Assembly: GCA_024641185.1 (NCBI GenBank)
Contig: JAHEDO010000002.1
Coordinates: forward strand, 1 to 32,091
Source: Burkholderiaceae bacterium
GTDB taxonomy: Bacteria; Pseudomonadota; Gammaproteobacteria; Burkholderiales; Burkholderiaceae_E
DNA: 32,091 nt
Direction: 5' to 3'
In this document: positions 3,842 through 19,095 of the stretch, in pieces
Numbering within the stretch: the stretch's first letter is position 1
Layout: each line of letters opens with the position of its first letter
Notes under the pieces: model-generated
Told to the model about the DNA's origin: nothing
The model's database searches: none
Seen by the model: the letters and a program-made list of their open reading frames with translations, nothing else
Position numbers and translations under genes: made by a program

Positions 3842-3861
3842 ACCGCCGGCGCAATGACCTG

Positions 3862-3990
3862 GTTACCCTCTTGCCCGATTACCCTCTTGCCCGATTACCC
3901 TCTTGCCCGATTACCCGCTTGCCCGCTTGCCCGCTTGCCCGCTTGCCCACTTATTTACTGACCCCCTGATTCCCTGATTCCCTGATTCCC
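3862..3990. repeat. Composite intergenic tandem repeats (GATTACCCTCTTGCCC, then GCTTGCCC, then CTGATTCC units)
   Basis: Two exact 16-bp GATTACCCTCTTGCCC copies at 3877-3908 with a partial copy before, four GCTTGCCC copies at 3917-3948, three CTGATTCC copies about 3965-3989. Confidence 0.9.
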
Positions 3991-13248: not shown

Positions 13249-14391
13249 TCAGGCCGCCCAGGCATCGGTGAAGGAGGAAAGCGTTCCGGCGATCCGGTCA
13301 TGATACCGGGCGCGAAACACCAGCCGGCGGTGCTCCGGCGAATCGCTGAAGGCATCGCGCTCGTGCAGCACATTGTTGCAGACGATGCCCATGCCGGGCT
13401 CGAGCCGCAGGCTGTGGACGTAGGGCGCGGCCGCATCGAGCACCGCGCGCAGAGCGTCCACCGCGGCGCGCGTCGCCGGATCATCGTGCCAGGCGATGCT
13501 GCGGGTGCGCGCGGTGTAGCGCATGTGCAGATCGCCGCTCGCTGCGAGCAGCGAGAAGACCGGGCCGGACCGGGCGCGGCGCGCCACGTCGCCCGCAACG
13601 GCGGCGCCGGCATTCGAACCGGCGCCCGCGCCCGCGTCTGCGTTTGCGTCTGCGTCTGCGTTTGCGTTTGCGTTTGCGTCTGCGTCTGCGTCTGCGTTTG
13701 CGTTTGCGTCTGCGTCTGCGTCTGCACCGGCACCGGCCGCGGTGTCGGCAGCTGCACCGGTGGCGGCGTCCGCCACCGCCTCTCGCGGCGGAATGAGCAT
13801 CGCGTCGTGGGCCGACAGCGCCCGAACGAAAGCCGGATCGGCGTCCCGCAACAGGATGTAGGCGATCTCGTGGTCGAGCAGCCGGTTGCCGCCGCCCTGC
13901 TCGGCGCGCTCGGCGCAGTGCAGCAGCATCGCGTTGATGTTGCGCCGCGGCTCGTTGTAGTAGCCGTCCGTGTGCCACCTGATCGGTCGGTCGGTATACG
14001 GGATGAACTCGCTGCGCGTGCCGCGCTCGCTGACCATGAGGCTGCTGATCCCGTCCTCGTCGGCCAGCCAGTTCGCGTCGAGGCTGCGAAGGCCCAGCTG
14101 CTCCCCGAGCCGTCGTGCGATCTCCTTGTCGGGCTCGCGGCGCCGGCTCGCGTAGACCGCCATGTTCGAGACCCGGCAGCGCTCGACGATCGCGGCCTGC
14201 TCGGCAGCGCTCAGCCGGGTCGGGTCCCCGACCTCGACGATCAGCGCCTGCGCGCCGGCGGGTGCGCGGGCGAGCTTCCAGTCGCGCCAGCGTCGGTACG
14301 ACGCCTCGTCGTCCAGCGCGAACGGGCTCCGCGCGCGCCCCTGGCGGTCGTCCACAGGGTGGGCAGGGCGGAAGTCCGAGCCGGAAACCAT
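13249..14391 (-). CDS. TauD/TfdA family Fe(II)/2-oxoglutarate-type dioxygenase with low-complexity insert
   Basis: From ATG at 14391 (MVSGSDFRPAHPVDDRQG...). 'IRWHTDGYY' (HxD), 'NNVLHERDAF' (distal His) and 'RLVFRARYHDRI' (Arg) match the TauD facial triad and 2-OG Arg. The 790-aa track ORF is a read-through open frame. Confidence 0.85.
   Translation of the reverse strand: MVSGSDFRPAHPVDDRQGRARSPFALDDEASYRRWRDWKLARAPAGAQALIVEVGDPTRLSAAEQAAIVERCRVSNMAVYASRRREPDKEIARRLGEQLGLRSLDANWLADEDGISSLMVSERGTRSEFIPYTDRPIRWHTDGYYNEPRRNINAMLLHCAERAEQGGGNRLLDHEIAYILLRDADPAFVRALSAHDAMLIPPREAVADAATGAAADTAAGAGADADADANANADADADANANANADADANADAGAGAGSNAGAAVAGDVARRARSGPVFSLLAASGDLHMRYTARTRSIAWHDDPATRAAVDALRAVLDAAAPYVHSLRLEPGMGIVCNNVLHERDAFSDSPEHRRLVFRARYHDRIAGTLSSFTDAWAA
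13634..13723. repeat. Hexanucleotide tandem repeat, 15 units of GCGTCT/GCGTTT, inside the dioxygenase gene
   Basis: Counted directly: 15 contiguous units; on minus strand (GCAGAC/GCAAAC)n encodes (AD/AN)15. Confidence 0.95.
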
Positions 14392-14405
14392 GTCGTGCGC
14401 AGGCC

Positions 14406-15014
14406 CTACTCGCCCGCGTCGCCGCCGCGCCGAGGTTTGGGCTCGATCCCCAGCAGTCCGCGCATCGACTTCTCCATGACGTCCACGCACTCCGGCCCCT
14501 CGACGGTCATCGCCTGGTCGAGCGCCCAGCGGCGATCGTCCGGGTCGGCCAGGGTGTCGGTCAGCAGGTGCCCGAAATGGCGCAGCATCGCGAACTCCGG
14601 GCCGTCGTCCCGATAGTCGAAATCCGCGTACTCGGCGGCGCGCTGATTGAATCGGTCGATGAAGCGCTTGCGGTACCCGCCGTCCGGCGCCGGACCGAGC
14701 AGATCGTCGAAACTGTCCTGCAATAGCTCGCCCACCCGCGTGACCAGCGTCGACGTGAAGACCTCGCGTGCGGCTCCCGGGTCGTGGCGGTAGGCGATGC
14801 GGTCGGCGACGACCACCAGGAAGCACAGCAGCTCGACGAGCACCATCAGATAGTCGGGCCCGGCGGCGACGTCGAAGTTGCCCTTGCGCAGGTTCTTCAG
14901 CCGCGCGTCCGCGATTCGCCAGACGATGGCGGCCAGCGCGTTGGCCACCTGCGCCGGGTCGCGCGGCGTCGCGTCGCGAAACCAGTGGGTCTTCAGTTTG
15001 ATGCCAGGGCGCAA
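14406..15014 (-). CDS. Conserved-looking protein of unknown function
   Basis: 202 aa: MRPGIKLKTHWFRDATPRDPAQVANALAAIVWRIADARLKNLRKGNFDVAAGPDYLMVLVELLCFLVVVADRIAYRHDP...; 14-bp gap to the dioxygenase start and 30-bp gap to the TusA gene. Confidence 0.75.
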   Translation of the reverse strand: MRPGIKLKTHWFRDATPRDPAQVANALAAIVWRIADARLKNLRKGNFDVAAGPDYLMVLVELLCFLVVVADRIAYRHDPGAAREVFTSTLVTRVGELLQDSFDDLLGPAPDGGYRKRFIDRFNQRAAEYADFDYRDDGPEFAMLRHFGHLLTDTLADPDDRRWALDQAMTVEGPECVDVMEKSMRGLLGIEPKPRRGGDAGE

Positions 15015-15044: not shown

Positions 15045-15533
15045 TCAGGCCTTGCGGATGTAGAACTCCCAGTCGTGCGAGCCGAACTCGACCACGTCCT
15101 CGAGCTTGCAGCCGGTGACCCTGGCCCAGCCCTCGACGTCGGCGCGCGCGCCCGGGCAGTTGCTGACCAGCCGGAGGATCTCGCCCGAGGCCATTCCCCC
15201 CAGCACCTTCTTGGCCTCGAGGATCGGGCCCGGGCAAACCGAGCCGCGCATGTCGAGCGAAACCTGCGGTTCCAGCTCGGGGCGTCGACCGCGGCGAACG
15301 TAGTAGCCGGTGGCACCGCTGGTCAGCCGCTCGGTCTTCACCACCTGGTTGCCGGTGCGCTCGGCCCAGGTATGGAGCTCGTCCATGGTCGCCGGGCAGT
15401 CGGAGATCAGCAGCAGGACCTCCCCCTCGGCGAGTTCCATGACGATCTTCTTCGCGCCGATGATCGGGCCGGGACAGCTCACCCCGGACAGATCGAGCGT
15501 GACGCCGGGACTGACAGCGGGCGATTGGGCCAT
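15045..15533 (-). CDS. Tandem (two-domain) TusA/SirA-family sulfurtransferase
   Basis: 162 aa with two complete repeats: 'LDLSGVSCPGPIIGAKKIVMELAEGEVLLLISDCPATMDELHTWAERTGNQVV' and 'LDMRGSVCPGPILEAKKVLGGMASGEILRLVSNCPGARADVEGWARVTGCKL'; both have the CPxP catalytic motif. Confidence 0.93.
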   Translation of the reverse strand: MAQSPAVSPGVTLDLSGVSCPGPIIGAKKIVMELAEGEVLLLISDCPATMDELHTWAERTGNQVVKTERLTSGATGYYVRRGRRPELEPQVSLDMRGSVCPGPILEAKKVLGGMASGEILRLVSNCPGARADVEGWARVTGCKLEDVVEFGSHDWEFYIRKA

Positions 15534-15575: not shown

Positions 15576-16217
15576 TCAGTCGATACCGCTGATGATCTTG
15601 TGGGGCAGGAAGATTCCGCAACCGAGCCCGCGCAGTTCGCCCAGCCCGCGCCGCTGCATCAGCAGCGACTGCAGGGGGCGCAACTGGTGCAGAACGACCC
15701 CGGCGCCGCTGATCGGGACCCCGCCGGCGCGCACCGTGCGCATTCTCCCGCAGATGAACCGCAGCGGCACGTCGAGCGCCTCGAGCATCGTCTGCACCGT
15801 CTCCTGATGCTCGAGCTCGTCCGCGGCGCCGGTCGCGACGAAATGCGCCGACAGCGTCGGATAGGGCTCCAGGGCGCGCGACCTGGCCGTGCCGATGTCG
15901 ATCTGCTCGCCTTCGACCGTCAGCGACTGCCCGGTCAGGCGCATCGCGTCCGTGCCGCGCGCGCCCGGCAGCCGCAGCGTCAATCGCGCACGCCGCGACA
16001 GCAGCAGGCCTGCGTCGGTCATCGCCCCCCGAATCGGATGCACGCCCGCACCCGGCTCGTCGGCCAGCCAGGGCAGGCGTTCCAGCAGCGCGGCCCAGAG
16101 CAGCGCGTGATAGTCGCGGGGCAGCCGGGTGCCGCGCAGCTCGAACACCAGGTCGAGGATCTCGTCGCCCGCCGCATCCGGCGGGTCGTCCCGGCCGACG
16201 ATAGGCGCATCGGTCAT
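15576..16217 (-). CDS. Cas6/Cmx6 (type I-MYXAN)-like protein, not associated with a CRISPR array in this window
   Basis: MTDAPIVGRDDPPDAAGDEILDLVFELRGTRLPRDYHALLWAALLERLPWLADEPGAGVHPIRGA...RRARLTLRLPG...GLGELRGLGCGIFLPHK; 'L.RDYHALLWAALLERLPWL....GVHPIRG' and the C-terminal glycine-rich 'GLG..RGLGCGIF' match what I know of the Cmx6 (TIGR02807) family. ATGA overlap with the upstream gene. Confidence 0.75.
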   Translation of the reverse strand: MTDAPIVGRDDPPDAAGDEILDLVFELRGTRLPRDYHALLWAALLERLPWLADEPGAGVHPIRGAMTDAGLLLSRRARLTLRLPGARGTDAMRLTGQSLTVEGEQIDIGTARSRALEPYPTLSAHFVATGAADELEHQETVQTMLEALDVPLRFICGRMRTVRAGGVPISGAGVVLHQLRPLQSLLMQRRGLGELRGLGCGIFLPHKIISGID

Positions 16218-16450
16218 TGCGGCTCCTGCCCGGCCTGTGGCTGCGACCCCGCCCATCGCGTCAGCGCCTCGCCCCAGGCGGCGGCGGAAGCCGGGTCGAT
16301 GTCGAACACGGTGAAGCGCCGGCCCTCTCGGATCCGGATCCTGAGCAGGCTCATTCCTCCGCCGGGGTAGTCGACCTGCTGCAGCTCGATCTCCTGGCCG
16401 CCGAGCGGCACCCGGAGCTTGTCGAGATTCGTGATTGTGAGTTTATCCAT
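16214..16450 (-). CDS. Small conserved protein (possibly DUF6967-like), unknown function
   Basis: MDKLTITNLDKLRVPLGGQEIELQQVDYPGGGMSLLRIRIREGRRFTVFDIDPASAAAWGEALTRWAGSQPQAGQEPQ; first gene of the operon; stop overlaps the Cas6-like start. Confidence 0.7.
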   Translation of the reverse strand: MDKLTITNLDKLRVPLGGQEIELQQVDYPGGGMSLLRIRIREGRRFTVFDIDPASAAAWGEALTRWAGSQPQAGQEPQ

Positions 16451-16514
16451 GGCGCACCGGCGATTGGGCAAGTTTGCGCGTCCCGCGTCCATAACCAGTG
16501 CCGGGGATCGCCTC

Positions 16515-16529
16515 TACCCCAATTGGGTA
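16515..16529. promoter_or_regulatory. Inverted repeat in the divergent dsrA promoter region (candidate regulator site)
   Basis: TACCCCAATTGGGTA (within CTACCC-CAATT-GGGTAG, 16514-16530); resembles paired NarL-type half sites TACYYMT but with spacing 1 rather than 2. Confidence 0.4.
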
Positions 16530-16638
16530 GCTGCCCGCCCCCCATCAGGTCGTTAAGAATAGCCGAGGAGGGGGATGGTCGCAGATACGCGCGATTCGTA
16601 GGATCGATGCGTAGCCTGCCGCCGTGCCGGTCGATTAC

Positions 16639-16675: not shown

Positions 16676-17971
16676 ATGGCAAAGAAAATGCGTGATACAC
16701 CGATGCTCGACGCGCTCGAGACCGGCCCCTGGCCCAGCTTCGTCACCGGACTGAAGCGGGTCGCCCAGGACAAGGACTACATGGTCGACGTGCTGGGAAC
16801 GCTCGAGACCTCGTACGAGACCCGCAAGGGCTACTGGAAGGGCGGCACGGTCAGCGTCTTCGGTTACGGCGGCGGCGTGATCCCGCGCTTCACCGAGCTC
16901 AAGGACGCGGACGGCAAGCCCAAGTTCCCGGACGCCGCCGAGTTCCACACGCTGCGCGTGATGCCCCCGCCCGGAATGCACTACAACACCGACGTGCTGC
17001 GCAAGATGGCCGACATCTGGGAGCGCCACGGCTCGGGCCTGATCGCCTTCCACGGCCAGTCGGGCGACATCATGTTCCAGGGCGCGACCTCGGCCAACGT
17101 CCAGCCCGCCTGGGACGAGATCAACGAACTGGGCTTCGACCTGGGTGGCGCCGGCCCCGCGGTGCGCACCGCGATGTCCTGCGTCGGCGCGTCGCGCTGC
17201 GAGCAGTCGTGCTACGACGAGGGCCACGCGCACCGCGTCGTGCTCAACAACTTCCTCGACGACATCCACCGTCCGGCACTGCCCTACAAGTTCAAGTTCA
17301 AGTTCTCGGGCTGCCCGAACGACTGCATGAACTCGGTGCAGCGCGCCGACATGGCGGTCATCGGGACCTGGCGCGACAACATCCGCACCGACGAGCCGCT
17401 CGCCCGCAAGTGGTTCGCCAAGCACGGCATGCACGAGCTGGTGCGCGACGTCGTCGCGCGCTGTCCGACCAAGACGATCCAGCTCAAGCAGGTCAAGGAC
17501 GTGCAATCGGGTCCGACCATCTCGAGCGTGGCGCTCGACGATGAAAACTGCCTGGAGATCGACAACCGCGACTGCGTGCGCTGCATGCACTGCATCAACG
17601 TGATGACCGGGGCGCTGGCGCCGGGCAAGGACAAGGGTGCCTCGATCCTGATCGGCGGCAAGCGCACGCTGAAGATCGGTGACCTGATGGGCACCGTGGT
17701 CGCGCCTTTCATTCCGCTGCAGAAGGAAGAGGACTACGAGCAGCTGGTCGACCTGGGGCAGCGCGTCGTCGAGTTCTTCGCCGACAACGCGCTCGAGCAC
17801 GAGCGCACCGGCGAGATGATCGAGCGCATCGGCCTGGTCAACTTCCTGGAAGGCATCGGCCTGGAAGTCGACGCGAACATGGTCTCCACGCCGCGCACCA
17901 ACCCCTACGTGCGCACCGACGGCTGGGACGAAGAAGTCGCCAAGATCAACCTCCGCAAGAACGCGGCCTGA
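16676..17971 (+). CDS. dsrA: Dissimilatory sulfite reductase alpha subunit
   Basis: MAKKMRDTPMLDALETGPWPSFVTGLKRVAQ...; siroheme/Fe-S cysteines 'CVGASRCEQSCYD', 'FSGCPNDCMNS', ferredoxin 'CVRCMHCINVM'. Confidence 0.98.
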   Translation: MAKKMRDTPMLDALETGPWPSFVTGLKRVAQDKDYMVDVLGTLETSYETRKGYWKGGTVSVFGYGGGVIPRFTELKDADGKPKFPDAAEFHTLRVMPPPGMHYNTDVLRKMADIWERHGSGLIAFHGQSGDIMFQGATSANVQPAWDEINELGFDLGGAGPAVRTAMSCVGASRCEQSCYDEGHAHRVVLNNFLDDIHRPALPYKFKFKFSGCPNDCMNSVQRADMAVIGTWRDNIRTDEPLARKWFAKHGMHELVRDVVARCPTKTIQLKQVKDVQSGPTISSVALDDENCLEIDNRDCVRCMHCINVMTGALAPGKDKGASILIGGKRTLKIGDLMGTVVAPFIPLQKEEDYEQLVDLGQRVVEFFADNALEHERTGEMIERIGLVNFLEGIGLEVDANMVSTPRTNPYVRTDGWDEEVAKINLRKNAA

Positions 17972-17982
17972 GAGGTACGACG

Positions 17983-19095
17983 ATGACACAGGTAGCACAG
18001 GCCCCGCAGGCGGCGAAAGCCGCACCCCCCACGCCGCGCCGCGCGAAAGAGACCGGCGTGCCGGACCACCGCCAGTACATGCACCCGGCGCTGATCCGCA
18101 ACCACGGCAACTGGAAATACCACGACCGGCCCCGCCCCGGCGTGCTGCATCACGTTTCGCACAGCGGCGAGGAGGTCTGGTCGGTGCGCGCGGGCACGCA
18201 GCGGCAGATGGACGTCTACACGATCCGCACGCTGTGCGACCTTGCCGACAAGTACGCCGAAGGCCACGTCCGGTTCACCATCCGTTCGAACATCGAGTTC
18301 ATGGTCGCCGACGAGAAGAAAGTGGCGCCGCTGATCGTGGCACTGGAGTCGGCGGGCTTTCCGGTCGGCGGCACCGGCAACTCGGTGTCGATGATCGCCC
18401 ACACGCAGGGGTGGCTGCACTGCGACATCCCCGGCACCGACGCATCGGGCGTGGTCAAGGCGCTGATGGACGAGCTCTACGAGGAGTTCAAGCGCGAGGA
18501 GATGCCCAACCGGGTCCACCTGTCCACCTCCTGCTGCGAGATCAACTGCGGCGGCCAGGCCGACATCGCGATCATCGTCCAGCACACCAAGCCGCCCAAG
18601 ATCAACCACGACCTGGTCGCCAACGTCTGCGAGCGCCCCGCGGTGGTCGCGCGCTGCCCGGTCGCTGCGATCCGGCCGGCACTGGTCAACGGCAAGCCCT
18701 CGCTCGAAATCGACGAGAAGAAGTGCATGTGCTGCGGCGCCTGCTATCCGCCGTGCCCGCCGATGCAGATCAACGACCCGGAACACTCCAAGCTTGCGAT
18801 CTGGGTGGGCGGCAAGAACTCGAACGCCCGCGCCAAGCCGACCTTCATGAAGATGGTCGCCAGCGGCCTGCCGAACAATCCGCCGCGCTGGCCCGAAGTC
18901 AACGAGGTGGTGCGCAAGATCCTGTTCACCTACAAGGCCGACGCGCGCCCTTGGGAGCGGCTCTCGGACTGGGTCGACCGGATCGGCTGGCCGCGGTTCT
19001 TCGAAAAGACCGAGCTGCCGTTCACCAAATACCTGATCGACGACTGGCGCGGTTCGCGGGCGAGCCTGAACGCTTCGGCGCACATCCGCTTCTGA
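17983..19095 (+). CDS. dsrB: Dissimilatory sulfite reductase beta subunit
   Basis: 'DHRQYMHPALIRNHGNWKYHDRPRPGVLHHVSHSGEEVWSVRAGTQRQMDVYTIR', 'CCEINCGGQAD', 'CMCCGACYPPCPPM'. Confidence 0.98.
   Translation: MTQVAQAPQAAKAAPPTPRRAKETGVPDHRQYMHPALIRNHGNWKYHDRPRPGVLHHVSHSGEEVWSVRAGTQRQMDVYTIRTLCDLADKYAEGHVRFTIRSNIEFMVADEKKVAPLIVALESAGFPVGGTGNSVSMIAHTQGWLHCDIPGTDASGVVKALMDELYEEFKREEMPNRVHLSTSCCEINCGGQADIAIIVQHTKPPKINHDLVANVCERPAVVARCPVAAIRPALVNGKPSLEIDEKKCMCCGACYPPCPPMQINDPEHSKLAIWVGGKNSNARAKPTFMKMVASGLPNNPPRWPEVNEVVRKILFTYKADARPWERLSDWVDRIGWPRFFEKTELPFTKYLIDDWRGSRASLNASAHIRF

Follow-up and report, generated by a model that had tools for sequence, protein, structure and literature searches.

The window, i.e. 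the whole stretch of DNA analysed (32,091 nucleotides of a Burkholderiaceae contig), contains the genes for a reverse dissimilatory sulfite reductase (rDsr) and, on the opposite strand, a cassette of genes among which one codes for a Cas6-family protein. The features concerned are the following:

13249-14400, minus strand: TauD/TfdA-like oxygenase gene at the cassette end, start codon uncertain (weak dioxygenase matches)
14406-15014, minus strand: conserved uncharacterised ORF of 202 amino acids, cassette member (no family above cut-off)
15045-15533, minus strand: tandem TusA-TusA protein (PF01206, 2.8e-38, two stretches; both Cys-Pro motifs intact)
15576-16217, minus strand: Cas6-family protein of 213 amino acids, assigned to a dsr-linked clade (TIGR02807, PF09559, AlphaFold2 model and Foldseek)
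16214-16492, minus strand: DUF6967 protein of 92 amino acids, upstream of the Cas6-family gene with an ATGA overlap (PF22295, 5.3e-30)
16514-16530, no strand: palindrome CTACCC-N5-GGGTAG in the divergent intergenic region (search of the genome and of homologous regions)
16676-17971, plus strand: dsrA, alpha subunit of reverse dissimilatory sulfite reductase (TIGR02064, 502 bits)
17983-19095, plus strand: dsrB, followed by dsrEFHCMKL to about 24893 (ORFs; same ortholog order in relatives)

The Cas6-family gene is an ORF that starts with an ATG at position 16217 and overlaps the DUF6967 gene at 16214-16217, while the divergent dsrA start lies 183 bp from the DUF6967 start. The initial annotation had placed a Cas6/Cmx6-like protein inside a sulfur-oxidation operon, translationally coupled to a small DUF gene, followed by a tandem TusA gene and divergent from dsrAB. 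The coupling, the two-domain TusA gene and the divergence were all read correctly; the gene indeed lies at the dsr locus, but in a separate unit divergent from the dsr operon and not within it. Two repetitive stretches were seen in the window as well, namely a hexanucleotide-type tandem repeat (GCGTCT/GCGTTT; 13598-13741), coding for an Ala/Asp/Asn-rich linker inside the TauD-like protein, and 8-bp tandem repeats at 3858-3953 (CCCGATTA / CCCTCTTG / CCCGCTTG).

Judged by sequence profiles and a predicted structure, the window protein is a member of the Cas6 (RAMP/RRM-fold) family. It scored 140.3 bits against the NCBIfam Cas6/Cmx6 equivalog (TIGR02807; curated cut-off 98.85), 176 bits (1e-51) against the Pfam Cas6 family (PF09559; cut-off 26.7 bits) and 2.8e-52 against the Cas6 models of PADLOC. 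Support independent of these profiles came from a phmmer search of the PDB, in which Cas6 of a type I-B CAST (8fcj_B) was matched at 9.7e-13, and at 1.2e-30 with an alignment profile as query. The AlphaFold2 model, built from 44 homologs, was confident (pLDDT 87, pTM 0.81); its best PDB match in Foldseek was again a type I-B CAST Cas6 (8fcu_B; TM 0.82, E 5e-16), and the first 40 PDB ranks consisted of Cas6 proteins or Cas6 in Cascade. Two RRM-like domains and a C-terminal glycine-rich loop GLGELRGLGCGIF were present. Hence, the family call of the initial annotation was right, both motifs that it had quoted occur in the translation, and significant Cas6 matches were obtained in sequence and structure, instead of the lack of any match that it had named as grounds for abandoning the assignment. 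PF09559 was present in a single copy in the own genome, an assembly of 3.2 Mb in 369 contigs that is 80% complete.

The distribution of this family follows that of rDsr. Among 150 relatives, 25 contained PF09559, making 26 with the own genome, and the dsrA-positive set (E below 1e-40) was identical to these 26/26. All of their loci shared one arrangement, consisting of a divergent dsrA followed on the other strand by DUF6967, the Cas6 homolog, a DsrC paralog and/or TusA, and the 202-amino acid ORF. In a sample of 369 Gammaproteobacteria (GTDB class, including 'beta'), PF09559 was found in 119 genomes (own genome counted) and dsrA in 120, of which 113 were shared (Fisher 5e-78, a value that ignores relatedness and hence overstates independence). 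Six genomes had PF09559 only, and at least two of them count as assembly edges, since the contig of G275 ends inside the adjacent TauD gene and that of G242 is only 3.5 kb long. Both genes lay within 7 kb of each other in 82 of the 113 shared genomes (median 2.8 kb), on different contigs in 29 and far apart in two. These last two genomes and G453 keep the Cas6 homolog away from the dsr locus, indicating that co-occurrence survives the loss of linkage. In two genomes of 1.4-1.5 Mb (G472 and G257; L156:6666-7379 and L157:5779-6441), the Cas6 homolog was seen off the dsr locus, beside a SoxW-like thioredoxin gene and divergent from rnc-era-recO. A scan of GTDB genomes yielded at least 577 confirmed relatives of the window protein; each of the 80 named loci retrieved (from Thiobacillus, Sulfuricella, Sulfuriferula, Gallionellales, Rhodocyclaceae, Lautropia and others) had the cassette, as a rule in divergent orientation to dsrA, with dsrA or dsrB on the same stretch in 77. 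A beta dsr cassette was also met on contigs of metagenome-assembled genomes labelled Moraniibacteriota, Chloroflexota and Rhizobium (L082, L088 and L107), which are probably misbinned, and in one locus (L025/L027; G068:C1:853269-853828) the Cas6 homolog occupied two frames, through either a sequencing error or a broken copy. PF09559 was found in none of the other classes of the phylum samples, despite 48 dsrA-positive genomes there, which indicates that rDsr as such does not need the Cas6 homolog. This distribution makes the coupling a trait of the Gammaproteobacteria, 'beta' members included. Compared with the known rDsr cluster (dsrABEFHCMKLJOPNR), the cassette has the same locus and a near-identical distribution within the Gammaproteobacteria, but it is a separate divergent unit that was not found described as a part of Dsr and that does not accompany dsrA in other classes.

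DUF6967 adjoins the Cas6 homolog in nearly all beta loci; in gamma loci, the Cas6 homolog is preceded by a TauD-like oxygenase gene and a 64-amino acid ORF, and a homology of DUF6967 to this ORF was rejected, as the profile comparison was not significant (probability 0.9%). The TauD-like gene recurs in the cassette, its gamma ortholog matching PF02668 at 2.1e-20, and the 202-amino acid ORF recurs beside Cas6, TusA or the DsrC paralog in other loci. In most loci, the gene directly after the Cas6 homolog codes for a member of the DsrC/TusE family (PF04358), for which TusA-TusA stands in the window's family. This paralog lacks the penultimate cysteine and ends in KGGY (123/130), unlike the operon's own DsrC, which ends in TGCI or TGCV (65/76 copies) and keeps both catalytic cysteines. 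Judging by its sequence, the paralog would be unable to act as a sulfur carrier by the established mechanism; regulation, or service as a decoy, is a natural guess for its role. Within the loci L002-L165, an example of a DsrC paralog without the C-terminal catalytic cysteine is found at L152:6237-6578.

With up to one mismatch allowed, the own genome has no second copy of the palindrome that lies between dsrA and the cassette. Across 77 non-redundant homologous intergenic regions, CTACCC-N4/5-GGGTAG occurred in 44, compared with 2.8 expected, and in several Thiobacillus loci two copies lay 25 bp apart. A role of the palindrome as an RNA hairpin bound in the leader of the cassette would be compatible with a short stem-loop, but was disfavoured, since the motif is met in both mirror variants (CTACTC..GGGTAG and CTACCC..GAGTAG) with a half-site spacing of 10-11 bp, making a DNA operator more likely. 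This suggests that the palindrome is a candidate operator of a dsr regulator.

A maximum-likelihood tree of 100 sequences separated dsr-linked from CRISPR-linked Cas6 by a branch with 100/99 support, the outgroup being small and mostly cyanobacterial, and the gamma dsr-linked sequences formed one clade (100/98). The direction from CRISPR to dsr is one that we infer from the wider Cas6 family and not from this tree. Positions that set the dsr clade apart, and the position corresponding to the catalytic histidine, are encoded in the window as follows:

15597-15605, minus strand: codons of Pro205-His206-Lys207, His-Lys being specific to the dsr clade
15747-15752, minus strand: codons of Cys156-Gly157, a motif of the dsr clade (clade alignment)
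15990-15992, minus strand: codon of Arg76, which never varies within the dsr clade but does in the CRISPR outgroup
16110-16112, minus strand: codon of Tyr36, the residue aligned with the alpha-1 His that occurs in CRISPR-linked members and in dsr-linked members from gamma (alignment column)

Arg76 was found in 100% of the dsr clade and is unconserved in the CRISPR outgroup. Similarly, Cys156 (92% of beta, 71% of gamma) and Gly157 (100% and 97%) contrast with an outgroup in which position 156 is occupied by Ile or Leu and position 157 never by Gly, and the near-invariant PHK at 205-207, with His206 in 97% of beta and 91% of gamma and Lys207 in 98% and 95%, contrasts with variable residues at 206 and 207. 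Cys156 was rejected as an essential sulfur-carrying residue, as it is not universal in gamma. Both clades have Arg82, Leu94 and the C-terminal glycine-rich loop in common. In Cas6 enzymes that have been studied, a histidine at or just before helix alpha-1 is catalytic. At alignment column 36, His occurred in 87% of the CRISPR-linked and 100% of the gamma dsr-linked sequences, while the beta dsr-linked sequences had His, Asn and Tyr in 51, 24 and 21%, respectively, reflecting repeated replacement of His36 across the beta branch. The window protein has Tyr36 and thus no catalytic His near alpha-1, which speaks against RNA cleavage of the usual Cas6 kind in this organism but makes it no more than less likely, because some Cas6 enzymes lack that His; crenarchaeal Cas6, for example, works without it (PMC3652601). 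Most close pairs had a dN/dS of 0.03-0.18, with about 0.49 in the window's family (simple counting method), and by these estimates the dsr-linked Cas6 homologs are under purifying selection (dN/dS 0.03-0.49). Compared with Cas6/Cmx6 of type I-MYXAN (I-B; PDB 8fcj and 8fcu), the window protein shares the profiles TIGR02807 and PF09559, the two-domain RRM fold, Arg82 and the loop GxGxxxxxGCGxF, but it lacks cas genes and an array, is dsr-linked, falls in a separate clade, has the new residues R76, C156-G157 and H206-K207, and carries Tyr in place of His36.

Taking profiles, predicted fold and genome distribution together, descent from the Cas6 family and coupling to rDsr appear practically certain. 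As to function, the best explanation, with a probability of about 0.45, is that the protein acts at the RNA level, as an accessory of the rDsr system that binds RNA, because its close structural relatives all bind RNA (every one of them being a crRNA-binding protein), it is coupled to one pathway and its neighbours are sensors or carriers of sulfur of the DsrC- and TusA-like kinds. The retention of Arg82 and the glycine-rich loop in both clades, the presence of His36 in all gamma-clade sequences and the precedent of DsrR, a regulatory Dsr protein already known in the sulfur oxidation of Allochromatium (PMC11406059), are consistent with such a role. The targets of the Cas6 homolog would be structured RNAs, one or a few in number (transcripts of dsr or of the cassette, or a small RNA), and Dsr expression would be set to the sulfur load reported by the DsrC-like and TusA-like partners. 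Gamma members with His36 may still cut RNA in the metal-independent manner of Cas6; in the window lineage, with Tyr36, RNA binding without cutting would be more likely. Several observations weigh against an RNA role. An Rfam search gave no known RNA element in the region and no RNA target was found, the conserved palindrome resembles a DNA operator and not an RNA hairpin, His36 has been lost repeatedly in the beta branch, Cys156 conservation and the neighbouring sulfur carriers suit a protein-only role equally, and the 48 dsrA-positive genomes of other classes lack the Cas6 homolog. In its fullest and more tentative form, the proposal is that a Cas6 endoribonuclease-family protein may have been captured early in the Gammaproteobacteria as a dedicated RNA-level controller of rDsr, forming with the cysteine-less DsrC paralog and small partners an undescribed RNA-protein regulatory module, kept down to genomes of 1 Mb.

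The main rival is a protein-only role, in which the Cas6 fold would now serve the trafficking of sulfur in the cytoplasm (TusA, DsrEFH, DsrC and DsrAB) as a scaffold or an accessory subunit, using the new residues R76, C156-G157 and H206-K207, RNA binding being gone. This is possible, though less likely. DsrC paralogs and TusA adjoin the Cas6 homolog, residues specific to the clade have appeared and the repeated loss of His36 in beta fits as well; however, Cys156 reaches just 71% in gamma, the DsrC paralog itself has no sulfur-carrying cysteines, and the Arg82, glycine-rich loop and overall Cas6 shape that have been kept would have no obvious use in a pure scaffold. TusA and proteins of the DsrC/TusE family take part in tRNA thiolation in other bacteria. 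As members of both are present in the cassette, the Cas6 homolog might be an RNA modification adaptor that presents RNA, for instance tRNA, to a TusA/DsrC-like sulfur relay, parallel to tRNA thiolation by TusABCDE; yet the KGGY end of the DsrC paralog and a co-occurrence with dsrA instead of general tRNA thiolation make this improbable.

The idea that the protein still works in trans for a CRISPR system encoded elsewhere in the genome is largely refuted and was rejected. The Cas1 found in half of the carriers would allow for it, but Cas1 was absent in the other half, namely in 13/26 order-level and 40/79 class-level carriers, including all five carrier genomes of 1.0-1.1 Mb. In the own genome (80% complete), neither Cas1 nor Cas7/DevR was found, and Cas3-core matches were only sub-cut-off helicases. 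Furthermore, no cas3, cas5, cas7 or cas8 neighbour was annotated or detected at any dsr-clade locus inspected, and the clade stands apart from CRISPR-linked Cas6. The initial annotation had reported no CRISPR-like array in 32 kb, which a repeat search of the window upheld, and had named, as a finding against it, a complete type I locus that lacks its own cas6 and uses this protein; none was found in the own genome at its 80% completeness. Its term 'orphan' is apt as far as CRISPR partners are concerned and not overall, given that the homologs surveyed have a conserved genomic setting of their own with dsr and TusA, and its idea of a non-CRISPR repurposing linked to sulfur oxidation is borne out by the co-occurrence with dsrA described above, a linkage far stronger than it could have foreseen; the dsr mRNA processing or scaffold role that it proposed would be candidate functions only. 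Based on tree topology and gene context, a separate, vertically inherited, single-copy clade partnered with rDsr, and not with CRISPR, is well supported. That the protein is an accessory of defence or of mobile elements which became fixed beside dsr by chance is a reading for which the Cas6 ancestry speaks, but it is very improbable in view of the single copy, vertical inheritance and retention in reduced genomes, the lack of hits in viral contigs and plasmids, and the near absence from dsr-negative relatives.

A viral or plasmid origin was likewise rejected, as the window protein had no relatives in viral contigs and no close ones in plasmids. When plasmids were searched with Cas6 from the PDB, cyanobacterial members were retrieved, 6/7 of those inspected having cas3/cas8, and mostly cas7/cas5, adjoining. 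On a plasmid of Gloeobacter morelensis (L142), a gene annotated as Cas6/Cmx6 without annotated cas neighbours lay near genes for a PAPS-reductase-family protein and a cupin, and is possibly another non-CRISPR use. Solo or domesticated Cas proteins, such as solo-Cas4 and CreTA using Cascade/Cas6, are likewise CRISPR components used outside an array, but the window family is tied, throughout an entire class, to a pathway of metabolism and not to mobile elements or toxin-antitoxin units.

In the open-licence full-text literature, no paper was found on an association of Cas6 with dsr or TusA, on DUF6967, or on an orphan Cas6 or Cmx6 in this setting, and a 2024 study of rDsr gene content makes no mention of Cas6 or CRISPR (PMC11406059). 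A 2025 classification of CRISPR systems names only Cas3 and CARF as abundant outside CRISPR islands and treats Cas profile hits outside the islands as false positives when building profiles, so that the association may have been missed (PMC12669027). In addition, dsr-linked homologs are easily counted as defence genes, because genome annotation labels them CRISPR Cas6.

The data indicate that one of the main sulfur-oxidation pathways has, across the class, taken over a CRISPR RNA-processing protein, also in reduced genomes that resemble those of symbionts, and the Cas6 homolog would be an overlooked conserved component of rDsr. The protein itself is a variant of a known family; if the proposed mechanism is true, its setting would amount to a new kind of system. 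As cultivated carriers suited to testing exist (Thiobacillus denitrificans, T. thioparus and Sulfuricella), the question of what Cas6 does without CRISPR becomes directly testable.
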